DNA from: a virus
Reading direction: 5' to 3' (one strand)
DNA: 33,496 bases
IMG/VR virus record: IMGVR_UViG_3300025466_001632
Coordinates: 1 to 33,496 of that record
A program made the position numbers and the translations under genes. Every line of letters begins with the position of its first letter. Positions within the stretch are counted from its first letter, which is position 1. Positions 1,819-29,637 of this stretch are shown one piece after another. The notes beneath the pieces are model-generated. The model was not told the DNA's origin. It saw only the letters and a program-made list of their open reading frames with translations, and ran no database searches.

Positions 1819-3291
1819 ATGACGAGCTTTTATACAAATGTGCACATTCGTGGAAACAAGATTTTCCTTCGTGGTTATGAGAAGGGTCTTCGTGTAACTG
1901 AAAAGATCGACTACACCCCATACGTTTTTGTTCCAAAGGCAAATGGAACTTACCGAACACTGGAAGGTCAGCCTGTCGCCAAGATGGACTTCGAAAGCAT
2001 CTCCGAAGCTCGTGACTTTGTCAAGAAGTACGAAGATGTCCGTAATATGCCCATCTATGGAATGACTACCTTCCAGTATCTTTACATCTTCGATGCATAC
2101 AAGGGTGACATCGACTATGATGCGAAGATGGTAAAGATCGGCACACTTGATATTGAGTGTGCGGCAGATGAAGGGTTCCCTGACATTCAAAAGGCGGATA
2201 AGCCATTGACCGCGATAACTGTTCGTTGTCGTGGGCGCAACTATGTCTTTGGTTGTGGTGAGTTTACTACGGATGATCCGAATACATATTATATGCAGTG
2301 TGCCAATGAGGTGCAGCTGGTCCATAATTTCCTCCAGTGCTGGAAGGTTCTGGATCTTGACATTGTGACTGGTTGGAATATTGAGTTCTTCGATATTCCA
2401 TATCTTGTTAACCGAATTGCAGCACTTGGTATGGATTCTAAGCGGCTGTCGCCATGGGGTGTTCTTGATGAACGCATGGTTGAGTTCCGTGGCAAGGAGA
2501 ACCAGAGCTTCAGCCCTGCAGGTATTTCAGTGCTCGATTATTACCAGCTGTATCGTAAATTCAGTTTCGGTAATCAAGAAAGTTATAAACTCGACTACAT
2601 TGCACAGATCGAACTTGGACAGAAGAAGCTTGACTATTCTGAGTACGGTTCTCTGCTCGAACTTTATAAGAACAATCATCAGAAGTTTATCGAGTACAAC
2701 ATCCTCGACTGTGTGCTCGTCGAGCGTCTGGATGATAAGCTGAAGTTCCTTGAACAGGTGATGGCGCTGGCATACGATGCCAAGGTCAACTATTCTGACA
2801 CCATGACAACTGTGCGTCCATGGGACATCATCATCCATAACTATCTGCTTGATCAAGGAATTGTTATTCCTCCAATGAAGCATCAGTCGATGGACACTGC
2901 ACTGGTTGGTGGATATGTCAAGGAACCAAAGCTTGGATTGAGCAAGTGGGTTGTGTCATTCGATTTGAACTCACTGTATCCACATTTGATCATGCAATAT
3001 AATATCAGCCCAGAAACATTTGTTGGTAGGTCAGATAGTTTCCCATCAATTGATGATATTATTAAACATCCTGAAATGAAATATAGTAAGGCTGCGCCTG
3101 ATGGTAAATCGACCTGCGCAATTGCTGCCAATGGTTGCTACTATCGTAAGGATAAGCAGGGCTTTCTTCCTGCCCTGATGGAGAAGATGTATAACGATCG
3201 TGTTGTATATAAGAAGAAAATGATTGAGGCTAAGCAAGAATTAGAATTAGTTGAAGCTGAGATGAAAAAACGTGGTATTTTTCTTACTTAG
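1819..3291 (+). CDS. 43: DNA polymerase gp43, N-terminal part (exonuclease and start of palm)
   Basis: About 490 residues of a T4-type family B replicative polymerase. The 3'-5' exonuclease motifs are present: Exo I 'DIECA' (Asp111, Glu113), Exo II 'WNIEFFD' (about 185-191) and Exo III 'YNILDC' (about 293-298). They are followed by palm motif A 'FDLNSLYP' (Asp382) and the start of the fingers ('NGCYYRKDKQGFLP', 'KKKMIEAKQ'). The ATG at 1819 is used because the promoter puts the transcript start near 1798. The protein ends with five residues (GIFLT) that look like insertion-derived sequence, then TAG. Motifs B and C lie in the downstream part (4014-5108), so this product must pair with it. Similar 43A/43B splits are known in some Aeromonas T4-like phages. 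Confidence 0.93.
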   Translation: MTSFYTNVHIRGNKIFLRGYEKGLRVTEKIDYTPYVFVPKANGTYRTLEGQPVAKMDFESISEARDFVKKYEDVRNMPIYGMTTFQYLYIFDAYKGDIDYDAKMVKIGTLDIECAADEGFPDIQKADKPLTAITVRCRGRNYVFGCGEFTTDDPNTYYMQCANEVQLVHNFLQCWKVLDLDIVTGWNIEFFDIPYLVNRIAALGMDSKRLSPWGVLDERMVEFRGKENQSFSPAGISVLDYYQLYRKFSFGNQESYKLDYIAQIELGQKKLDYSEYGSLLELYKNNHQKFIEYNILDCVLVERLDDKLKFLEQVMALAYDAKVNYSDTMTTVRPWDIIIHNYLLDQGIVIPPMKHQSMDTALVGGYVKEPKLGLSKWVVSFDLNSLYPHLIMQYNISPETFVGRSDSFPSIDDIIKHPEMKYSKAAPDGKSTCAIAANGCYYRKDKQGFLPALMEKMYNDRVVYKKKMIEAKQELELVEAEMKKRGIFLT

Positions 3292-3304
3292 GAAACCTTT
3301 ATTT

Positions 3305-3312
3305 TATAAATA
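3305..3312 (+). promoter_or_regulatory. Late promoter box TATAAATA for the homing endonuclease
   Basis: An exact match to the T4 late consensus, 22 nt upstream of the GIY-YIG ATG and inside the insertion in the early polymerase gene. Late promoters of their own are typical of phage homing endonuclease genes in early operons, for example I-TevI. Confidence 0.75.
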
Positions 3313-3333
3313 AACATAGAAAGGAGAAATTCT

Positions 3334-4029
3334 ATGTTTTACTGCATTTATAGAATTACAAATATTATAAATCAAAAATACTATATTGGAGCTCATAAAA
3401 CATCAAATATGGAAGATAATTACTTCGGTTCTGGTGTTGGGTTAAAACGAGCTATTGAAAAATATGGTAAAGAAAATTTTACGAAAGAAATTATATGCTT
3501 TTGTGAAGATGAAAACGATATGTATTTTCGAGAAAAAGAGCTTGTCATATTAAACGAAAACAGTTATAATATGACAAAGGGAGGAAAAGGAGGTTTTTCT
3601 CATATAGATGGTTCTGGCGACAATAATGTAATGAGAAAAAGTCAGAAAGCTAGAGAAAAAGTTTCTATTGCAATGAAACGAATCAGAAACGATCCTTTTA
3701 AAAAAGAACAATTCGATTTGATTAGCAAAAAGAATTTAGAAAAAGCTGTATTGAAAAATACAGGAAAAAAGAGACCAGAGCATTCATCATTGATGAAACA
3801 AAAAGGTCAATTAAAAGAAAAATGGGCTACTGATAAAGAAAATATGAGGGATATATTATCTTCATATTTTGAAGTATTATCACCCGATAATATCAAGTAC
3901 ACAACAAACAGACTACAAGATTTTTGTAAAGAACATAATCTTTCATATACTACTTTATGGACAACATCTAAAACTAATAGAACTCCAAAAAAAGGAAGAT
4001 CAAAAGGATGGATATGCAAAAAGATTTGA
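3334..4029 (+). CDS. GIY-YIG homing endonuclease inserted in the polymerase gene
   Basis: A 231-residue site-specific nuclease. The GIY-YIG domain is at about 1-90: 'YCIYRITN', 'YYIGAHKT', and the FGSG and 'YGKENFTKEII' segments with a Glu-rich helix. It is followed by NUMOD-type DNA-binding modules ('GKKRPEHSSLMK', about 145-160). A C-terminal module 'NRLQDFCKEHNLSYTTLW...GWICKKI' is typical of phage mobile endonucleases. The ribosome site AAAGGAG lies 8 nt before the ATG. The gene is AT-richer than the polymerase on either side. Its last 16 nt overlap the start of the second polymerase part. I see no clear group I intron core, so a free-standing (Mob/Seg-like) insertion is more likely than an intron, but an intron is not excluded. 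Confidence 0.9.
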   Translation: MFYCIYRITNIINQKYYIGAHKTSNMEDNYFGSGVGLKRAIEKYGKENFTKEIICFCEDENDMYFREKELVILNENSYNMTKGGKGGFSHIDGSGDNNVMRKSQKAREKVSIAMKRIRNDPFKKEQFDLISKKNLEKAVLKNTGKKRPEHSSLMKQKGQLKEKWATDKENMRDILSSYFEVLSPDNIKYTTNRLQDFCKEHNLSYTTLWTTSKTNRTPKKGRSKGWICKKI

Positions 4030-5108
4030 GCGCATTGAGAAAGGAGGAGCTAATAGCGCACCGTGAGCAGCTGATCAAGAACATTTCTCGCTACCATAAT
4101 TTTCAAATGGCCAAGAAAATTCAATTGAACTCTGCTTATGGTGCTCTTTAGCTCGGGAACCAATACTTCCGTTGGTTTAACTTCAATCATGCTGAAGCCA
4201 TTACCACTTCGGGTCAACTCTCTATTAGGTGGATCGAGAAGAAAATGAATCAATACATGAACAAGATATGTAAGACAACTGATGTTGATTACGTAATTGC
4301 TTCTGATACTGATTCTATCTATGTCACATTCGAGAAACTGATTCCAGAAACTGCTGACGAACTCAAGGCAGTTGATTTGATTAACAAGTTCTGTGAGTCA
4401 AAGATCCAGCCATATATTGATTCGTGTTATCAAGAATTGGCAGGTATGATGAATGCTTATCAGCAGAAAATGCAGATGAAGCGCGAGACTATCGCTAACA
4501 AGGGTATCTGGCGTGGTAAGAAGATGTACATCCTCAATGCTTGGAATGTTGAAGGTGTGCAGTATGATAAACCGAAGCTAAAGATGTCGGGCATTGAAGC
4601 TGTTCGTTCATCAACTCCATACGCTTGTCGTCAGAAGATCAAAGAAGGTCTGTCCATCATCATGAACGAAACGCAAGATGACTTGAAAAAGTTCATTGAG
4701 AAGTTTCGTGTTGAGTTTGCTGGATTGCCGTTCGAAGATGTTGCGTTTCCTCGTGGATTGAAAGGCATGACAAAGTATCGTGATGCTTCCAATCATTATA
4801 TCAAGGGAACACCTATCCAAGTGAAAGGTGCTCTGCTGTTCAATCATCTGTTAAACAAGCACAATGTAAAATCAATTGTACCATTGTCGGATGGTGATAA
4901 GATCAAGTTCGTATATTTGAAGGTTCCTAATCCAATTGGTGATACAGTGATCGCTGCACCTGATTATCTTCCAACTGAATTTGGACTCAATAAGTACATT
5001 GACCGTGATATGCAGTTCGAGAAAAGCTTCATGGAACCAATCCGTTCTATCACAGAAGTTATCGACTGGAATGTCGAGAATAAGGCAACACTGGAGGACT
5101 TTTTCTAA
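4014..5108 (+). CDS. 43: DNA polymerase gp43, C-terminal part, interrupted by an in-frame TAG
   Basis: This carries the rest of the fingers, palm and thumb: motif B 'KKIQLNSAYGAL', 'NHAEAITTSGQLSIRWIEKKMN', motif C 'SDTDSIY' and a C-terminal 'LEDFF' that resembles the sliding-clamp contact of T4 gp43. The ATG at 4014 has AGGA 5 nt upstream and lies within the end of the endonuclease gene. After YGAL (ends 4148) comes TAG (4149-4151) and CTC (4152-4154), and the same frame continues GNQYFRW. T4-type polymerases read YGALGN here, so the six bases are extra. No good restart lies between the TAG and motif C; the first in-frame ATG is 4245, which loses motif B. Either ribosomes bypass the TAG, the codon is suppressed, the gene is a mutant, or the base call is wrong. 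The 4014 start is inferred. Confidence 0.85.
4146..4157 (+). other. Candidate +6 ribosomal stop-hop site (CUU UAG CUC GGG)
   Basis: The last leucine codon CUU (4146-4148) is followed directly by UAG and then CUC. One tRNA-Leu (anticodon GAG) can read both CUU and CUC. If peptidyl-tRNA left CUU and re-paired with CUC, six bases would be skipped in frame and the product would read YGAL-GNQY, the exact family consensus. A take-off codon followed at once by UAG is also the arrangement in the T4 gene 60 bypass, where the gap is 50 nt. The sequence is seen directly; the hop is inferred. Confidence 0.45.
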
Positions 5109-5320
5109 TGAAGAAAATCGAAGAAAACGATTTTGGGTTTACAATGCAAGATGTTGATGAAGTGTCTCCAATCACAAAGTTGAATGGACTGCGTGATATG
5201 ATTATGCCACTATTGAATAATCTAAAGAAGAATCCTGAAAAGGATATGATTAATTGGCCAAATCGTACTGAAAAGATTGATGCGTTTATCAAGAAGATGG
5301 ATGACTATATCAACAGTTGA
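5108..5320 (+). CDS. Small acidic conserved phage protein between gp43 and uvsX
   Basis: A 70-residue protein of unknown function; its ATG overlaps the polymerase stop (TAATG), so translation is probably coupled. It starts 'MKKIEENDFGFTMQDVDEV' and has a helical, Lys/Asp-rich C-terminal half ending 'KKMDDYINS'. Short DFGFT-type proteins at this place are, from memory, usual in marine T4-like phages. The co-transcription with gp43 suggests a replication accessory role, but no domain supports this. A 7-bp hairpin (5114-5120 with 5128-5134) lies at the start of the coding region. The last bases overlap the -35 box of the uvsX promoter. Confidence 0.8.
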   Translation: MKKIEENDFGFTMQDVDEVSPITKLNGLRDMIMPLLNNLKKNPEKDMINWPNRTEKIDAFIKKMDDYINS

Positions 5321-9128: not shown

Positions 9129-10049
9129 GTGGCTTCCAATACAGACCAAGCTGACATTAATGAAATTTTATTAGGATATTTTCTTGCTGGAAGTAAATGG
9201 ACAAGCTTGGGTAATGATGCGAAAAAACAACATGATACAAAAGCTAAATTGTTAACTGATGATGAATATAAACAACAATCTGGCAGAGCTGAAGTTATGG
9301 CGAAAGATGTTATTGTTTGGGCTAAGGCAAATGGTTATAAAGGCAGTATAACCAAAGTTTGGTGGACTGCACGTCCTGGTAGTTTATCTGAAGCTGTTGA
9401 AAGAACTGTTGATCAAAGAAAAAATCCAACAGATATTTTAATTAAATATTCTAGTGGACCAGCAAATGGGTTTCTTGGTATATCTGCAAAATCAACGAAA
9501 GGCAAAACTGACATTGGTTTCAAGAATCCTGGTCTTGGTACAGTTGAAAAAGCATTACAAATTCAATTGAAAATAATTGATGATAAAGCAATCGCAGCCG
9601 TGATTAAGAAATTTGATTTACCAGCATCAGCTGATGCAAGAAAACAGATGATTCGAAAAAATCCTCACATTCAAGCTAAAACAGAAGAAATGGGTAAGAA
9701 AGTTCTGAGCGATATTAGAGATAAATTTCTTACTAAGTTGCTTTCATTAAAACCAAAAGAATTGATGGATTATATTCTAACATATTGGGTAGATTCATCA
9801 TCTGAATTGTATCCTCCTTATATCAAAGCAACAGGCATGGGTTCGAAACCACCATTCACTTCGAAAGTTGATGATCCTCTTAAGAATGATAAATTAACTT
9901 ATTTGACAACAAAGAAAATAACATTGTCTAAAGTAGGTAATGAATCTATTGGTGTTAAAGCAGGAGATAAACAGATTCTGAAGATGCGAGTAAAATATGA
10001 ATCTGAAAAATTAGCTAGTTCTGTTAAACTTTCTGGCGACCCTTGGTAA
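9129..10049 (+). CDS. Protein of unknown function, possibly PD-(D/E)XK nuclease-like
   Basis: A 306-residue protein starting with GTG; the ribosome site is AGGAG. No family is recognised with certainty. A segment 'NPTDILIKYSSG' (Asp about 102) is followed 17 residues later by 'GISAKST' (Lys about 121) and then 'KTDIGFKNPGLGT'. The PTD...SAK spacing resembles the core of PD-(D/E)XK nucleases, which would be a DNA-cutting role, but this is only a pattern match. The N-terminal part 'DINEILLGYFLAGSKW' and the Lys-rich C-terminal half have no clear motif, and there is no signal peptide or membrane segment. It is the first gene of the late block. Confidence 0.85.
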   Translation: MASNTDQADINEILLGYFLAGSKWTSLGNDAKKQHDTKAKLLTDDEYKQQSGRAEVMAKDVIVWAKANGYKGSITKVWWTARPGSLSEAVERTVDQRKNPTDILIKYSSGPANGFLGISAKSTKGKTDIGFKNPGLGTVEKALQIQLKIIDDKAIAAVIKKFDLPASADARKQMIRKNPHIQAKTEEMGKKVLSDIRDKFLTKLLSLKPKELMDYILTYWVDSSSELYPPYIKATGMGSKPPFTSKVDDPLKNDKLTYLTTKKITLSKVGNESIGVKAGDKQILKMRVKYESEKLASSVKLSGDPW

Positions 10050-10050
10050 A

Positions 10051-10058
10051 TATAAATA
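10051..10058 (+). promoter_or_regulatory. Late promoter box TATAAATA
   Basis: An exact late consensus directly after the stop codon of the preceding gene and 18 nt before the ATG at 10076. The usual offset places the transcript start near 10065. Confidence 0.75.
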
Positions 10059-10075
10059 ATCAAAAAAGGCATTAC

Positions 10076-12241
10076 ATGATTAACTTTAAATCTTTCATAA
10101 CAGAATCACTTGACGTAGAAAAGCTCCAGCATCTTGAGCATGCAGAGGATCATCTCATTCATGGTGGTCACGAAGGTGTTGGTCATGTTGCCTCAACATT
10201 GTCAGACGTATATGATTTCCTAAACGGTAAGAAAACAAAGACTCGTATTACTACCAAGTTCGATGGTGCTCCCTCACTTGTGTTCGGTGTTAATCCAGAG
10301 AATGGTAAATTCTTTGTTGCTTCGAAGTCTGCTTTCAATAAGACACCAAAGATCAATTACACAGCCGATGATATTGAACGTAATCATGGACATGCTCCTG
10401 GATTAGTTGCGAAACTTAAGCTTGCTCTTAAAGAACTACCAAAGGTTATGCCGAAAGAAGGTGGTGTATATCAGGGCGACGTAATGTATGGAAAAGATGA
10501 TGTTTCTGTTAAAGATGGTAAAGTCAATTTTACACCTAATACGATCACTTATGGCTCTAAAGAAGATTCAGCTGCTGGTCGTCGTGTTGCTGCTTCCAAT
10601 TTCGGTATTGTTGTTCATACAAAATATACTGGCAAAACATTAGCTGACATGAAGGCTGGCTTTGATGTTGATCAGAGTAAATTTCAGAAAGATCCAGCTG
10701 TCAATATGATCAGCCCAGAGCTAACTGATCCTGGCAAGTTTCCTTCTATCAATAAAAAAGAATACGAAAAGAATATCGAAGATGCTACCAAGATGATGGA
10801 AGATATTCATCATGATACGCTCGATAAAGTTAAGCAACAAGATGTTCTTATTAAGACTCATATCAATCAGCACGTGCGTGCAGGAACAGCAATTACTGTT
10901 AAGAGCTACCTTAAGTTTCTCCAAGAGAAAATGGATAAGGATGTAGCCTCTGTTAAGACGGAAGCTGCTAAACAGAAAAAGCAGGAATACTATCAAGAGC
11001 GTATCGATGCTGTCAACAAAGATAAAGACGAGTTCGAAAAAGTATTCAAGATGCATGCTGCTGTTCAGAGAGCAAAAGATGCTCTTGTTAGTGGTTTGGC
11101 TAATACTCCAGGTGAATTTGAAACAACAATTGGTGGTAAGCCAACAAAGCCTGAAGGTTTCGTTGCTATTAAGAATGGTCGCCCAACAAAACTAGTTGAT
11201 CGTGCTGAGTTTAGCCGATTGAATTTTGCTCAGGGTGCATTCCAGAAGGCAGCTGCAGCAGAAGAAATTGCTGGTGAGCCACCAGAAGATACTCCATTGA
11301 ACCCAGCTGTATTGTCATTCGGACGCATGAATCCACCTACCTCTGGTCATGGCGTACTAGTTGGTAAGGTGCAGGAAATTGCCAAGGAACAAAAGGCAAA
11401 GCACCGTATTGTTCTCTCGCGCTCGCAGGATCCAGAGAAGAATCCACTTGCACCAGAAGAAAAGTTAAAGCATGCCAAGCGTATGTTCCAAGGCGCAAAT
11501 ATTGAAGTTGCTGATCAGAGCGAACCAACTATCATTCATCAGTTGAAGAAGCTCGAAAAAGAAGGTCATGATCAGGTTACTGTGGTTGTTGGTTCTGATC
11601 GTGTCGAAGAGTTCCAGAAGCTTCTTACTGCTCAAAATGGCAAAGACTTCAAGTTTAAAAAGATCCAAGTTGTATCTGCTGGTCAACGTGATCCAGATGC
11701 TGAAGGTGATGTTGGTATGTCAGCTTCGAAGATGCGTGCACATGCCATGGGTAATAAGTTTGGTGAGTTCAAGAAAGGACTACCAACAACACTTCATCCA
11801 GAGCATCAGAAAGAATTATTCCATGCTGTCAGACAGGCTATGGATATTAAAATCGACCAGCATACTCCTGGTATCTCATTAGCTCGTTATGCTAAAAGAA
11901 ATGATAAAGTTGGTGAACGTGCTCGTAAGGAACAAGAGCGTCGTTTAAAAATTAAAGAAATGGAAAAGGTAGCATCAAAAAGAACTAAATCACTTACCAA
12001 ACTTGTTGCTAAGAAACCAATCAAAGAAGAACAAATGACTTCTGGTGGTGGAGATGTGCGTGGTCTTGGTTATGTTACTGGTGATCCAGGTGGTTCATTA
12101 AATACTTGGACTGCTCTTAATGCATCAGATGCTGATACAAAAAATGATTTGTTAAACCAGCTGAAAAAAGATTTTCATGATTCATTACATGCCAATGCTC
12201 CTGCAACACCAAAAACAGCTGCAGTAAAAGGTAAGAAGTAA
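10076..12241 (+). CDS. Two-domain protein: ligase-like domain plus nucleotidyltransferase
   Basis: About 721 residues. The ATG at 10076 (MINFKSFITES) is chosen because the late box lies between it and an upstream in-frame start. The N-terminal domain has 'TTKFDGAPSLVFG' (Lys61-x-Asp-Gly), the adenylation motif of nucleic-acid ligases, and 'GVYQGDVMYGKDDV' resembling a later ligase motif. A coiled-coil, Lys/Glu-rich linker (about 240-350) leads to a nucleotidyltransferase domain. That domain has 'GRMNPPTSGH' (about 416-425, HxGH type) and 'SASKMRAHA' (about 548, ISSTxxR type), as in NMN or pantetheine adenylyltransferases. The tail is Lys-rich. Both domains transfer AMP-like groups, so NAD or RNA-end chemistry is plausible; the substrate is unknown. 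Confidence 0.85.
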   Translation: MINFKSFITESLDVEKLQHLEHAEDHLIHGGHEGVGHVASTLSDVYDFLNGKKTKTRITTKFDGAPSLVFGVNPENGKFFVASKSAFNKTPKINYTADDIERNHGHAPGLVAKLKLALKELPKVMPKEGGVYQGDVMYGKDDVSVKDGKVNFTPNTITYGSKEDSAAGRRVAASNFGIVVHTKYTGKTLADMKAGFDVDQSKFQKDPAVNMISPELTDPGKFPSINKKEYEKNIEDATKMMEDIHHDTLDKVKQQDVLIKTHINQHVRAGTAITVKSYLKFLQEKMDKDVASVKTEAAKQKKQEYYQERIDAVNKDKDEFEKVFKMHAAVQRAKDALVSGLANTPGEFETTIGGKPTKPEGFVAIKNGRPTKLVDRAEFSRLNFAQGAFQKAAAAEEIAGEPPEDTPLNPAVLSFGRMNPPTSGHGVLVGKVQEIAKEQKAKHRIVLSRSQDPEKNPLAPEEKLKHAKRMFQGANIEVADQSEPTIIHQLKKLEKEGHDQVTVVVGSDRVEEFQKLLTAQNGKDFKFKKIQVVSAGQRDPDAEGDVGMSASKMRAHAMGNKFGEFKKGLPTTLHPEHQKELFHAVRQAMDIKIDQHTPGISLARYAKRNDKVGERARKEQERRLKIKEMEKVASKRTKSLTKLVAKKPIKEEQMTSGGGDVRGLGYVTGDPGGSLNTWTALNASDADTKNDLLNQLKKDFHDSLHANAPATPKTAAVKGKK

Positions 12242-24760: not shown

Positions 24761-25198
24761 ATGAGATTATTTTTTGCTTGCTTGACTATTCTATTTGCTA
24801 CCACTGCACTTGCTAATGATCTTGGGTTTCAGTTCAACTCTCCATCATTCAATGGCAATGGTTACTCAGCACACATAACTGAAATCTATCAACTAGAAGA
24901 AGCCAACAAGCAAAAGATCGTTGATAATAAATCTTTGGCATCAGCACAAGCAGCAGCAAAGGCAGCTTCTGATCCAGTAAATCAATTTGTTATGACACTA
25001 AACTCTATGGTCTATCAGCAGTTATCCCAGCAGGTCACTAACTCTATCTTTGGTAATGGAATTGATCACGGGGTAATTGCTTTTGGAACAACTACTATAT
25101 CGTGGCAGAAAAATACAGATGGAACAGTCACAGTTAATACAGTAACGCCAAATGGTACTACTCAGTTGATTGTTCCTAGCACTACATTTGCTCAATAG
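24761..25198 (+). CDS. csgF: Curli assembly factor CsgF
   Basis: A 145-residue secreted protein. The signal peptide is about 1-18 ('LFFACLTILFATTALA'), followed by 'DLGFQFNSPSFNGNG', which matches the CsgF N-terminus that inserts into the CsgG pore in E. coli. The rest has a polar helix, 'DPVNQFVMTLNSMVYQQLSQQ' and a beta C-terminus ('GTTTISWQKNTDGTVTVNTVTPNG'). CsgF couples curlin secretion to surface nucleation. It starts 5 nt after thyX, with AGGA as ribosome site, so it is probably on the same message. It is followed by csgG, the same pair as in bacterial curli operons. CsgG/CsgF homologues have, to my knowledge, been noted in pelagimyophages. Confidence 0.85.
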   Translation: MRLFFACLTILFATTALANDLGFQFNSPSFNGNGYSAHITEIYQLEEANKQKIVDNKSLASAQAAAKAASDPVNQFVMTLNSMVYQQLSQQVTNSIFGNGIDHGVIAFGTTTISWQKNTDGTVTVNTVTPNGTTQLIVPSTTFAQ

Positions 25199-25206
25199 GT
25201 GATATT

Positions 25207-25995
25207 ATGAAAATTGTGATTGCTGCTCTTGGTTGTCTTATGCTTGCTGGTTGTGCAACAAAGTATGCTGATGTAGATTATAAGGTTGAACCACCAAAGG
25301 TTGTTAGTCAGGATTTCTTCAAGCGTGAAGAGAATCAAGTGAAGCCACCAAAGGGCGGTAAAGTAATTGTTAGCGTCTACAACTTCAAAGACCAAACAGG
25401 TCAGAGAAAGCCTAATGATAAGCTTGCTGTGTTCTCATCAGCAGTAACACAGGCTCCTGATGCTTATCTTGTTAAGGCACTTCAGGATGTTGGTGATGGG
25501 AAATGGTTTCGGGTTATCGAGCGTGTTGATATTGATAACCTGATCAAGGAACGTCAGTTAATTAAGTCAATGAGAGACTTGTATGATGGTGATAAGGCAA
25601 AGCCTCTTGATCCGCTATTGTTCTCTGGTTTGATCATTGATGGTGGCGTTGTTGGTTATGATTCTAGTGTACAAAGTGGTGGTATTGGCGTAAGGGTATT
25701 TGGTATTGGACCTAATGTTCAATATAGAACTGATATTGTTACAGTTAACCTAAGAGTAGTATCGGTTAACTCTGGTGAAGTTTTGTTGAGCGTTACAACA
25801 ACAAAAACCATTATGAGTTATGGTGATGATGTTAGTGCTCTGGTGTTTGCTGATGCTGGAACCCTAAGTATAGAAGGTGAAGTTGGTCATACAATTAATG
25901 AAAGTGTTAACCTAGCTACACAGAGAGCTATTGAGGCTGCTGTTGTTGAAATGGTTCGGGAAGGTGAAAGAAAGAAATACTGGAAGTTCAAGTAA
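25207..25995 (+). CDS. csgG: Curli secretion pore lipoprotein CsgG
   Basis: A 262-residue outer-membrane lipoprotein. The lipobox 'LMLAGC' gives Cys16 as the lipidated residue. 'GKVIVSVYNFKDQTGQRKP', 'IIDGGVVGYDSSVQSGG', 'GVRVFGIG', 'VTVNLRVVSVNSGEVLLSVTTTKTI' and 'EGEVGHTINESVN' align along the whole E. coli CsgG. E. coli CsgG is a nonamer with a constriction formed by Tyr51, Asn55 and Phe56. Here the loop reads 'PNDKLAVFSSAV': only the Phe is clearly kept. The C-terminal helix is shorter than in E. coli, ending 'KKYWKFK'. It lies between csgF and a curlin-like gene. Confidence 0.93.
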   Translation: MKIVIAALGCLMLAGCATKYADVDYKVEPPKVVSQDFFKREENQVKPPKGGKVIVSVYNFKDQTGQRKPNDKLAVFSSAVTQAPDAYLVKALQDVGDGKWFRVIERVDIDNLIKERQLIKSMRDLYDGDKAKPLDPLLFSGLIIDGGVVGYDSSVQSGGIGVRVFGIGPNVQYRTDIVTVNLRVVSVNSGEVLLSVTTTKTIMSYGDDVSALVFADAGTLSIEGEVGHTINESVNLATQRAIEAAVVEMVREGERKKYWKFK

Positions 25996-26010
25996 CGAAC
26001 GGAGTAAACA

Positions 26011-26673
26011 ATGAAGAAAATTATACTAGCGTTCTTTGTAATGCTAGCAACTATGAGTGTAAGTCACGCTCAAAATACTATCTATATGAGACAGTTAGGT
26101 TCTTCATCAACGATTGATCTGGAACAAGTTGGTTCAAACAACTCTATTGGTACATCAATTGCATACTCTGCAAGCACTGGTGATACTAATAGTATAACTG
26201 TTCAACAGACAGGTAGTAACAACATCCATAATTTTAACATTATTGGATCACAAAATACCTACAGTTCAATAATCAACGGTGACTCTAATCAGTTTACTTT
26301 GACCTGTGGTGACTCAGCTGTATCTTGTTCTTCTGCAACGATAACAGAAACGGCAACTGGTAACTTGAATAATGTTACACAGACTATCAAGGGTCAGAAC
26401 ATAAGTTCAACGGTTGCTATTACTGGATCATCGAATGCAGTAACAACAAACATTATACAATCTAACTCGACGAGCAATATCGCCATTACTGGTGATGTGA
26501 ATAATGTGAATTCGACTATTAATGCTACTGGGGGAACTGGTAGCACTTTGGGTATTAATATTCTTGGTAGCTCAAATACCGTATTAACAACCCAAGGTGG
26601 CACTATTGATAGTACCGTCAAGCTTCAGGTTACTGGTACTTCTAATAACGTTACTGTTCATACCACAAATTAG
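26011..26673 (+). CDS. Curlin-like secreted repeat protein
   Basis: A 220-residue protein with a signal peptide (about 1-20, ending 'VSHA') and an Asn/Ser/Thr/Gly-rich mature part. Repeats of the curlin type are clear: 'IYMRQLGSSSTIDLEQVGSNN', 'SITVQQTGSNN', 'FNIIGSQN', 'VTQTIKGQN', 'VAITGSSNAV', 'INILGSSNTV'. In CsgA such units (I.Q.G..N) stack as amyloid beta-hairpins. The Gln residues become fewer toward the C-terminus, and a Cys pair ('LTCGDSAVSC') interrupts the array; both differ from CsgA. It is the likely substrate of the CsgG pore next door. Its last 68-77 nt overlap the start of the FecR gene in another frame. The ribosome site is GGAG. Confidence 0.82.
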   Translation: MKKIILAFFVMLATMSVSHAQNTIYMRQLGSSSTIDLEQVGSNNSIGTSIAYSASTGDTNSITVQQTGSNNIHNFNIIGSQNTYSSIINGDSNQFTLTCGDSAVSCSSATITETATGNLNNVTQTIKGQNISSTVAITGSSNAVTTNIIQSNSTSNIAITGDVNNVNSTINATGGTGSTLGINILGSSNTVLTTQGGTIDSTVKLQVTGTSNNVTVHTTN

Positions 26674-27580
26674 TCTTGCTGAAATTGGCAAGATTAAAAC
26701 AATTGATGGACCAGTTGTCTCAATCAAACGAGACAAAAACTTATTAGAAGGTAGTAAAGACTCTGATATTGAATCTATGGACACTGTAGAGACTAAGAAC
26801 TCTACGGTGGATATTTCGTTTAAAGATGATACAAAGGTTGTCATCAAAGAAAACTCAAGACTATTGATCGACGACTTCGTATTTAATCCTAATCAATCAG
26901 GCGGTAAGCTTGGATTGAAAATAGGATTTGGTACTGTTAGATATGCATCAGGACAGATAGCACACGCCAATCCACAATCAGTTGATATTCAAACACCAAC
27001 CGCAACTATTGGTGTTCGTGGAACCGACTTCAATATGGTTGTTGATGAGATTGGACGTAGTTTAGTTGTTCTTGTTCCCAGTTGTGATCATACTGGATGT
27101 GTTACTGGAAAGATAGAAGTATCATCATTATCTGGCACAGTTGTTCTTGATCAACCATATACAGCGACATACGTTTCACAAGCATCACAATCGCCAATTC
27201 AGCCAGTAAAAGTTGCTAACATAACTGACAAACAAATAAATAACATGTTGATTGTTGCTGTTCCAAAAGAGGTTTTGGCTGAGCTTCATGAGGCTGAAGA
27301 AGCACAGAAACAAAATGAAATTGATCAGATGGAGAAACACCAGATATCAATTACAAATAAAACTAACAATAATAAAAGTGCTGCCTCACCTGTTATCATT
27401 GTAGAAAATAAAAACGGCAGCACTACAGCAAGAACTAACAACGATAAAAACAATAGTATGTTTATTGACTTTGGTAATGTAGGCAACGCTTCTATCGAGT
27501 TGCAAAGAAACAGTGATATTAACAATGCTAAAATTGGGGATGGTGGATCAACTAGAATAACAATAAGGCAGACCAAATGA
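26606..27580 (+). CDS. FecR-domain secreted protein
   Basis: About 324 residues from TTG 26606 (ribosome site AAGG, 8 nt upstream); a GTG at 26597 would add three residues. The signal peptide 'RLLVLLITLLFIPQISLA' is followed by 'EIGKIKTIDGPVVSIKRDK' and the FecR core 'DISFKDDTKVVIKENSRLLI', ending in 'TPTATIGVRGTDFNMVV'. Then come an acidic helix (about 225-255), an Asn-rich spacer and a C-terminal 'NASIELQRNSDINNAKIGDGG' that itself resembles a curlin repeat. FecR domains of this kind lie in the periplasm and often neighbour CHASE2 cyclases in bacteria. The ATGA overlap with the cyclase gene supports a functional pair. The start is encoded inside the curlin gene. Confidence 0.85.
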   Translation: MIVPSSFRLLVLLITLLFIPQISLAEIGKIKTIDGPVVSIKRDKNLLEGSKDSDIESMDTVETKNSTVDISFKDDTKVVIKENSRLLIDDFVFNPNQSGGKLGLKIGFGTVRYASGQIAHANPQSVDIQTPTATIGVRGTDFNMVVDEIGRSLVVLVPSCDHTGCVTGKIEVSSLSGTVVLDQPYTATYVSQASQSPIQPVKVANITDKQINNMLIVAVPKEVLAELHEAEEAQKQNEIDQMEKHQISITNKTNNNKSAASPVIIVENKNGSTTARTNNDKNNSMFIDFGNVGNASIELQRNSDINNAKIGDGGSTRITIRQTK

Positions 27581-29637
27581 TAGAAAAGCTAGGCAAATAT
27601 CTAACAAGTAATTGGACAGCAGCTATCGTTGCTTGTCTTCTATTAGCTTTGTTCGTCATTAATCCTAGCCCCATTCAAACGCTACAGCTAAAAACATTTG
27701 ACTACTTCATCAATTCTCTACCAAAGAAGAATTCTGATGAAATTGTTATTGTTAACTTTGGCGAACAGTCAGTAAAACAATTTGGTCAATGGCCATTTGA
27801 TCGTAGAGATATCGCAAAGACAATTGATAAACTAAAAGAACACGAAGCAGCTGTAATCGTTGCTCCTATATTATTTTCAGAAAAGGATAGATTGGGTGGT
27901 GATGATGTTTTGGCAAAGACTCTTGAATGTGTTATTATTGCACAAACCCCAACTACACAGAATGTACCGCCAGATGCTGTTCGTCGTGGATTCGCTGCTA
28001 TTGGTCCTGTTGATCCTAGCCTCTATGTCTATCATTGGTCTGGTGGATTACGCCCTCTGGATAACCTTGCAGAATCTGCATCCGGCGTCGGTGTCATCGC
28101 TACTGTCCCTGAACTCGATGGTGTTGTCCGCCGTGTTCCTCTACTGGTCAATATTGCAGGTAGTCTCTATCCATCTATTCCTCTGGAAACGCTTAGAGTC
28201 GCCGCTGGAGATCCATCTTATCAAATTAAAACAAGTGACGATGGAATTCAGTTTGTTCGTATCCCTGCATATCCAGCCATTGCTACTGATGAACATGGTA
28301 GAATTTGGACTACTTGGAACACTCATTTTGATCAGGTAGAAGCTACTGAAATTGACGATAGAGTAAAAGGTAAAATTGTTGTTTTGGGCTTGACTATTGA
28401 AGGCGTTGGCAGTATAATCAGTACTGCATCGGGTGAACAATGGTCACATCAGATACAAGCTTCTACTCTGCAAACACTTATTGATGGAACTTCGATAACA
28501 CGTCCATCATCTGCAAAACCGCTAGAGATCCTAATACTATTACTACTAGCAGTATTATTGTTGTATCTCGTACCTCGTACTTCGGTAATGCTGACAGCGC
28601 CATTGTTCGTATCATTTATTGCCTCCATTGCTTTTGGTAGCTATTATATGTTTACGCACTATATGCAGCTATGGGATCCAAGCTACCTTGTACTTAGTTG
28701 CGTTGCAATATTTGGTCATCTTGTATTCAATAACTTTGCTCGTGAGAATAGACTAAAGCAGCAGATCAAGAAACAGTTTGGAACTTATCTATCTCCAGCG
28801 ATGGTTGAGAAGTTGCAAAAGAATCCGGAGCTATTAAAACTTGGAGGAGAAACTCGTGAATTGTCAATCATGTTTACTGATGTGCGTGGGTTTACTAGTA
28901 TTTCTGAGCATTATGGAAACGATGTTCAAGGACTAACAAAAATAATGAATCGCTACATGACGGCGATGACTGCAAAGATTATAGATAATAACGGTACACT
29001 AGACAAGTATATCGGTGATGCTCAGATGGCATTCTGGAATGCGCCGTTAGATGATAAAGATCATGCGTTACGTGCAGTGAAGACAGCATTGGAGATGTTA
29101 GATGACCTCAAAAGATTTAACACCGAGATTTTGGCTGAAGGTGTCCCTGCCTTTGGTATGGGTCTTGGCATTAATACAGGTAGTGTCGTTGTGGGGAACA
29201 TGGGATCTTCTCAACGTTTTGATTACACCTGTCTTGGCGATCCTGTTAACTTGGCAAGTCGTTTGGAAGGGCAATCAAAACCATACCACGTAAAAATGGT
29301 TATTGGACCTCTAACATATCAGTATGTTAAAGAAAAATATCTTTGTCTTGAACTTGATTGTCTTGCAGTTAAAGGTAAAAGTGAAGGTGTAAACATATAC
29401 ACTATTGTTCCAAAAAATGGCGTTAATATTGCATATTCTCGTTCACATAAAGATTTTCTTCAATACTATAGAAACAAACAATGGTCTAAGTGTGCTGAAT
29501 ATTATAAAGTTCTTTCAACTGCATTTGATGGCGAGATGAAAGAATACTATGATATGATGATGGAAAGAATTGAAGATTATAAGAAGAATCCACCACCACA
29601 AAATTGGGATGGCGTGTTTAGGACAAACTCAAAATGA
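27577..29637 (+). CDS. CHASE2-domain adenylate cyclase, class III, membrane bound
   Basis: A 686-residue protein. One membrane segment (about 13-31) leads to a periplasmic CHASE2 sensor (about 35-310; 'LQLKTFDYFINSLP', 'GQWPFDRRDIAKTI'). Three more segments follow (about 320-395), then a linker 'KQQIKKQFGTYLSPAMVEKL' and the catalytic domain (about 425-610). Metal-binding Asp residues are in 'MFTDVRGFTS' (about 434) and 'DKYIGDAQMAFW' (about 480). The purine-specifying Lys of 'LDKYIGD' and Asp of 'LGDPVNLASRLEG' point to ATP rather than GTP, and the transition-state Asn and Arg are in the last motif. All catalytic residues are present, so it should make cAMP. It overlaps fecR and the glycosyltransferase by 4 nt each. 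Confidence 0.93.
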   Translation: MIEKLGKYLTSNWTAAIVACLLLALFVINPSPIQTLQLKTFDYFINSLPKKNSDEIVIVNFGEQSVKQFGQWPFDRRDIAKTIDKLKEHEAAVIVAPILFSEKDRLGGDDVLAKTLECVIIAQTPTTQNVPPDAVRRGFAAIGPVDPSLYVYHWSGGLRPLDNLAESASGVGVIATVPELDGVVRRVPLLVNIAGSLYPSIPLETLRVAAGDPSYQIKTSDDGIQFVRIPAYPAIATDEHGRIWTTWNTHFDQVEATEIDDRVKGKIVVLGLTIEGVGSIISTASGEQWSHQIQASTLQTLIDGTSITRPSSAKPLEILILLLLAVLLLYLVPRTSVMLTAPLFVSFIASIAFGSYYMFTHYMQLWDPSYLVLSCVAIFGHLVFNNFARENRLKQQIKKQFGTYLSPAMVEKLQKNPELLKLGGETRELSIMFTDVRGFTSISEHYGNDVQGLTKIMNRYMTAMTAKIIDNNGTLDKYIGDAQMAFWNAPLDDKDHALRAVKTALEMLDDLKRFNTEILAEGVPAFGMGLGINTGSVVVGNMGSSQRFDYTCLGDPVNLASRLEGQSKPYHVKMVIGPLTYQYVKEKYLCLELDCLAVKGKSEGVNIYTIVPKNGVNIAYSRSHKDFLQYYRNKQWSKCAEYYKVLSTAFDGEMKEYYDMMMERIEDYKKNPPPQNWDGVFRTNSK

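Follow-up and report, generated by a model that had tools for sequence, protein, structure and literature searches.

A probable short ribosomal hop over a stop codon at the edge of a homing-endonuclease cassette in the DNA polymerase gene of T4-like phages

A polymerase gene with a stop in motif B

How can a phage make its DNA polymerase when a stop codon stands within catalytic motif B of the gene? The question is raised by the window analyzed here, a 33,496-base virus contig of IMG/VR in its entirety, which carries a T4-type replication block (Table 1). Positions 4128-4166 read AAC TCT GCT TAT GGT GCT CTT TAG CTC GGG AAC CAA TAC TTC, which is translated as N S A Y G A L stop L G N Q Y F. An earlier note, made from this DNA alone, had seen in it six bases too many, to be skipped by a ribosomal hop. 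The excess proved exact, as CTT, TAG CTC and GGG AAC stand where relatives have CTN GGN AAY. When the TAG was taken as sense, the whole frame fitted the polymerase family (phrog_262 E 6e-141, phrog_1918, PF00136), and comparison with the solved T4/RB69-type polymerases found the two extra residues absent from these.

Table 1. Features of the polymerase locus in the window
Feature	Position	Strand	Basis or remark
DNA polymerase (T4-type) N part, exonuclease domain to start of palm	1819..3291	+	ends in its own TAG
Mobile cassette, window versus L045	3235..4156	+	~98% identity; about 72-75% outside
Upstream split, TAG of polymerase N part	3289-3291	+	
Homing endonuclease gene, GIY-YIG, SegH/phrog_314 type	3334..4029	+	PF19835, PF01541, phrog_314 E 5e-39
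C-part frame, first segment to take-off codon, motif B, encodes KKIQLNSAYGAL	4008..4148	+	phrog_1918
SD-like AAGGAGG just 5' of stem	4041..4047	+	position taken by a GAGG-like motif in almost every relative
Hairpin 5' arm	4053..4068	+	16-pair core; the window's pairing extends over about 4049-4078
Hairpin 3' arm, coding SAYGAL and entering the stop	4134..4149	+	extended pairing about 4125-4152
Candidate take-off codon CTT (Leu)	4146..4148	+	sequence, relatives
In-frame stop TAG (gap to be skipped)	4149..4151	+	sequence
Candidate landing codon CTC (Leu)	4152..4154	+	sequence
Polymerase remainder, frame unchanged, intact: motif C, thumb, C-terminal TLEDFF	4155..5108	+	

In profile searches the N part matched PF03104, PF00136, phrog_262 (positions 6-496) and phrog_2062. 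The C-part frame, with ATG 4008 or 4014 as start candidates, runs to 5108, and the motif-B stop lies 45 or 47 codons into it. The homing endonuclease gene that the note had placed next door is the GIY-YIG gene at 3334-4029, located between both polymerase parts; the polymerase gene is also split upstream by it, a point beyond the note's account.

The half 3' of the TAG, which the note had considered intact, contained no further stops, and its codons are under strong purifying selection. Over the first 25 codons after the stop, two loci with the same hop (L107 and L102) differed by 9 synonymous and 0 non-synonymous changes, and two sister hops (L090 and L091) by 14 and 0. In a contig of 178.6 kb (L123), the gene with the hop is the sole family-B polymerase, and no second polymerase copy was detected in nine smaller hop contigs. 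Comparison among these loci shows a downstream half which, as judged from its codons, stays under selection as protein.

Further downstream, the window contains a curli-type set (24761-27580) made of CsgF (24761-25198), CsgG (25207-25995), a curlin-repeat protein (26011-26673) and a FecR-domain protein (Pfam). Adjoining these genes, a CHASE2 domain is combined with an adenylate/guanylate cyclase (27577-29637), and this gene is followed by a family 2 glycosyltransferase and then by a calcineurin-like phosphoesterase. Also, DUF6267 is fused with a cytidyltransferase-like domain at 10043-12241.

Distribution and forms of the stop site

The six bases were sought in related phages, as the earlier note had proposed, and a recurring stop site was found: 22 distinct IMG/VR sequences have a stop exactly after YGAL or YGALG. 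The note had also held that stops scattered at random in relatives would speak against a hop; they stand only after YGAL or YGALG. In IMG/VR, nearly all of 80 polymerase relatives carry YGALGN or YGALAN without a stop, and among the 80 relatives fetched with the N part the stop is confined to loci with the split. A scan of all IMG/VR contigs for NSAYGAL-TAG returned 10 contigs, each of them a polymerase, and the same 10 were recovered with a second pattern allowing any stop. The corresponding scan of all IMG/VR viral contigs for YGALG followed by a stop returned 12 contigs, to which a wider pattern added 8. A stop one codon earlier (after YGA) or later (after YGALGN) was found in none of the viral contigs scanned. 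A scan of 257 Gb of genomes for NSAYGAL-TAG yielded 7 matches, unrelated and due to chance. The identical site is present in independently assembled contigs (L084/L093, L092); so far as sequence collections allow, this also answers the note's concern that TAGCTC might be missing on resequencing. Because separate assemblies agree in this way, the site of the window is, on sequence grounds, more than chance or misassembly.

Because cassette transfer relates the lineages, the 22 sequences should not be counted as that many independent events. In the polymerase tree, hop loci are interspersed with stop-less loci, with 6 state changes, of which at least 3 are forced by well-supported branches; the hop-only outer group of this tree reflects in part how those loci were fetched. 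Among 50,697 phage records, searched by endonuclease, by several versions of the pre-stop peptide and by DNA, no isolate with the hop was found.

Some isolates were considered as candidates and rejected. The Synechococcus phages S-H34, S-N03 and MC09 (L117, L118 and L128), which have two annotations at the site, are split upstream only: their polymerase is divided at a similar position, a small ORF separates the two parts, and motif B is without stop or stem, which makes these phages suitable as controls. In Sinorhizobium phage phiM7, the polymerase gene is intact.

The +6 hop from CTT to CTC that the earlier note proposed is supported by these comparisons, but not as the sole form, as it is one of at least 15 (Table 2). 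It is favored because related phages with other gaps, many of them out of frame, still have a landing codon synonymous with the take-off codon and a downstream half that is intact.

Table 2. Forms of the stop site in IMG/VR loci
Take-off	Gap	Landing	Loci	Remark
CTT	TAG	CTC	window, L045	
CTT	TAG	CTA	L091	
CTT	TAG	CTT	L095	
CTT	TAGTGA	CTC	L097	tandem stops TAG-TGA
CTT	TAGC	CTT	L090	7 nt excess
CTG	TAGCGAAT	CTG	L058	11 nt excess
GGT	TGA	GGA	L098	stop is TGA
GGT	TAGTTA	GGA	L106	
GGC	TAGCTA	GGC	L103	
GGT	TA	GGT	L107, L102, L120, L123, L126	5 nt excess (L107)
GGA	TAGTTT	GGC	L119	
GGA	TAGTTT	GGT	L122	
GGT	TAGTTA	GGT	L125	
GGT	TAGAAA	GGA	L124	
GGT	TAGC	AAC	L042, L108, L099	4 nt excess, with AAC as the codon after it; without synonymous landing codon

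The excess amounts to 4, 5, 6, 7, 9 or 11 nt, with gaps of 2-8 nt, and 10 of the 22 sequences are put out of frame by it (4, 5, 7 or 11 nt). The stop lies immediately 3' of the take-off codon in 22/22, TAG being by far the commonest, and 14 of 15 site forms have a landing codon synonymous with the take-off codon (CTN to CTN, GGN to GGN). Each time, removal of the excess leaves a family-normal protein with YGALGN or, in one clade, YGALGS. Between the sister loci with gaps TAGC (L090) and TAG (L091), gap and frame differ and the protein hardly does. The comparison says that hops of 4 to 11 bases would be needed to make the polymerase. The odd form GGT TAGC AAC would require either a 4-nt hop with two-of-three pairing (AGC) or a +1 shift adding Ser. 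The duplicate Leu or Gly codons could in part be a by-product of the joining of cassette and target; since the junction may itself create the duplicate codon, we attach no probability to codon matching.

The endonuclease cassette and its conserved hairpin

The endonuclease of the window shows 36% identity to SegH and has the attributes of a Seg-type free-standing GIY-YIG enzyme: the domain is present, the gene is lodged beside its target gene, and cleavage is predicted. The segment shared with L045 reaches from the tail of the N part over the endonuclease gene and the start of the C frame to the stem and the stop, and on its right side it closes with the landing codon and GG. Because 3235-4156 is near-identical in these otherwise diverged phages, the hop site and the endonuclease move as one cassette. 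For gene 60 of T4, Bonocora et al. in 2011 reportedly thought likewise that bypass and endonuclease move together as one cassette. Comparison shows a cassette with this predicted stem and the stop in polymerase motif B of many T4-like phages.

The endonuclease gene is intact in the window and in L045, L042, L108, L091, L090, L106, L107, L119, L123 and L125, is reduced to remnants in L095, L103 and L099, and is gone from L058, L098, L102, L120 and L122. Stop and stem persist where it is degenerate or missing. At the insertion (2800-5200), no group I or group II intron or known RNA was found, without an Rfam match at E up to 1. One locus with a more distant polymerase (L124) has the same anatomy of stop and stem beside a different GIY-YIG-like gene on the reverse strand (4574-5251), which hints at convergence or at exchange of the endonuclease.

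Folding gave a long stem in every hop locus, and 22/22 carry a covarying stem with its base at the stop. In this stem, the stretch coding SAYGAL(G) pairs with a stretch ~80 nt upstream, in the new N-terminal part of the C frame. The stem alignments extend over 121 nt and are gap-free. Over the 16-pair helix, 88% of the cells are paired and 6 pairs have changed on both sides; when the register of the helix was slid, pairing fell to 24-52%, one of the tests giving 28-49%. Covariation tracks synonymous codon changes (CAGCG/CGCTG, CAAGAGC/GCTCTTG, CAAGTGC/GCACTTG, CTAGAGC/GCTCTAG). In 15 hop loci, 12-15 of the 16 pairs are in register, versus a mean of 5.9 and a maximum of 10 in 60 stop-less relatives, and no common structure was found in stop-less control genes, S-H34 and S-N03 included. 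The stems are also far stabler than synonymous shuffles, with MFE z from -2.5 to -8.8. Eight further loci, chosen by YGALG-TAG alone, all have the stem, with 11-16 pairs in register, and their candidate landing codon is a matched Gly codon; because these loci were selected on the stop alone, they are an independent confirmation of the stem and the matched landing.

The GAGG-type motif occupies invariant columns 10-13 of alignment A1 and is looser in the six extra rows of A3. The AAGGAGG-like motif lies ~105 nt upstream of the landing codon and comes near it only with the stem closed; in gene 60 of T4, an SD-like sequence closely precedes the landing codon. The feature described by the earlier note, of which the hop is supported, was thus incomplete, as the hairpin and the endonuclease cassette also belong to it.

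Proposed mechanism, alternatives and known bypassing systems

Taken as a whole, these data make it highly probable that the site is a programmed short-gap ribosomal bypass, or stop-hop, at the right edge of a homing-endonuclease cassette. Ribosomes would start the C part at 4008/4014 and pause on CTT while UAG occupies the A site. Peptidyl-tRNA-Leu would then release CTT, slip forward past UAG and re-pair on CTC, and decoding would restart at GGG to give ...NSAYGAL-GNQYF... without added residue; the predicted junction peptide of the hop product is IQLNSAYGALGNQYFR, with no extra residue, a tryptic peptide identical to that of stop-less relatives. As the stem's 3' arm reaches down to the take-off codon, it could, on leaving the ribosome, re-zip with the 5' arm behind the ribosome and pull the mRNA. 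The closed stem would also bring AAGGAGG to ~7 nt from the landing codon, where it could aid landing. The end of the cassette would place the presumed cut of the endonuclease at or near YGAL/GN; the extra bases at this presumed target probably protect the carrier's own DNA, and the hop would repay the damage done to an essential gene. More tentatively, and with confidence that falls a little short of even, we propose a minimal bypass mechanism in which the stem acts as re-zipping motor and as carrier of the SD-like motif, with hops of 4-11 nt made without the nascent-peptide signal and the A-site hairpin of gene 60. A different role for the stem is conceivable, because a ribosome with the stop in its A site covers the greater part of the 3' arm.

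One such role would be that of a DNA homing element (a second endonuclease-binding site or a cruciform) or of an RNA-processing signal, the hop then depending on codon context alone. This reading concerns the stem only and is compatible with the hop. It would suit a 3' arm which is also the presumed endonuclease target, the inverse complement of which could be a binding site, and a stem which is mostly unwound while the ribosome stands at the stop. Nevertheless, the stem persists where the endonuclease is degenerate or missing (L095, L103, L099, L058, L098, L102), its many G-U pairs at conserved positions suit RNA over DNA, and its base coincides with the take-off codon, so that we regard this reading as unlikely. 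A decaying polymerase gene, or a sequencing error, is what a stop within a catalytic motif would at first suggest; separate assemblies share the site, however, in 22 distinct versions, and the purifying selection after the stop, the absence of downstream stops and the presence of this polymerase as the only one in a 178.6-kb contig leave such an origin with a very small probability.

Translation could also deal with the TAG in other ways than by a hop. Readthrough by a suppressor tRNA or by recoding, with two residues added, would agree with the in-frame excess of 6 nt in the window and with TAG as by far the commonest stop, but the added residues would fall in the conserved YGALGN, and the excesses of 4, 5, 7 and 11 nt as well as the TGA form (L098) do not fit. 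Because 10/22 sequences are out of frame and one has tandem TAG-TGA (L097), we consider readthrough practically excluded. Alternatively, the polymerase would be made in three pieces by re-initiation, with termination at TAG and a third polypeptide beginning beside the landing codon, helped by the AAGGAGG which the hairpin delivers. The conservation of this SD-like motif 5' of the stem is in favor of it, T4 genes 25 and 38 are established examples of an SD bridged by structure (PMC3014915), and two-piece polymerases are functional in related phages (PMC2988022). But no form has a start codon at the landing site. Between the stop and a point 4 codons before motif C (catalytic DTDS), L090 has no in-frame ATG, GTG or TTG; up to the same point L091 has a single TTG, 20 codons in. 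Moreover, TTG could readily serve as a start and encodes this Leu more often than any other codon in stop-less relatives (26/60), yet it never occurs at hop sites, and synonymous take-off and landing codons would be unneeded. Re-initiation is thus improbable, and we retain the programmed hop as the best explanation.

The analogy with T4 gene 60 drawn in the earlier note was borne out in the shared order of N part, endonuclease gene and C part, in a bypass ~45 codons into the frame and in a conserved stem. In T4 gene 39-mobA-60, an essential replication gene is likewise split by a homing endonuclease gene (PMC3014915, PMC11194080, PMC5009743). The bypass of gene 60 occurs near codon 46 of the downstream piece, UAG follows the take-off codon directly, take-off and landing codons are synonymous (in gene 60 identical), and a stem-loop lies 5' of take-off, which has been proposed as a motor behind the ribosome (PMC5009743). 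In contrast, the gap is 50 nt in gene 60 and 2-8 nt here, too short for an A-site take-off stem-loop, and the stem of the polymerase gene, the longer of the two, extends down to the take-off codon. The systems also differ in gene (polymerase versus topoisomerase), in nuclease (GIY-YIG versus HNH) and in spread (many phage lineages versus one). The nascent-peptide signal KKYK, ~30 residues before the P site in gene 60, is absent from the hop loci; a shared peptide, RKEELIAHREQ or EELQELRRQT, is found at about the distance of KKYK and also codes the 5' arm. Because the 50-nt gap and the A-site hairpin are both missing, the site is filed as a new variant of bypassing and not as a gene 60 homologue.

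Bypassing in gene 60 has been called apparently unique in a T4 review (PMC3014915), counterparts with shorter gaps have long been expected, and no natural in-frame stop-hop was known as of a 2016 review (PMC5009743). Synthetic stop-hops in E. coli made comparable moves of +5 and +6 (Weiss et al. 1987, per PMC5009743), whereas the phage sites are natural and conserved, in an essential gene, and accompanied by a covarying stem. The byps of Magnusiomyces mitochondria are also mobile inserts in essential genes skipped by ribosomes, with similar take-off and landing codons, but they are 81 scattered inserts of yeast mitochondria which seem context-independent (PMC5009743), whereas the polymerase hop has one position in one gene and a dedicated stem. 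In the Aeromonas phages 25 and 44RR, gp43 (43A/43B, seg43) is a T4-type polymerase encoded by two separate ORFs, and phage 25 also has a seg endonuclease insertion; unlike here, a second stop in motif B and a bypass are unreported there (PMC2988022). No published account of the polymerase hop site was found among open-access full texts.

If the hop is real, these environmental T4-like phages would hold the first natural family of stop-hops, which have so far been laboratory constructs only. The ~15 natural site forms, in which evolution has varied gap, codon pair and stem, would make the rules of hopping directly testable. The site would also be a second link between bypassing and homing endonucleases, with a different gene and a different nuclease family, which suggests that an endonuclease may generally tag the copy of an essential target gene in which it resides and leave that copy functional. 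For annotation, a motif-B stop in the polymerase of such phages would not mean a broken gene.
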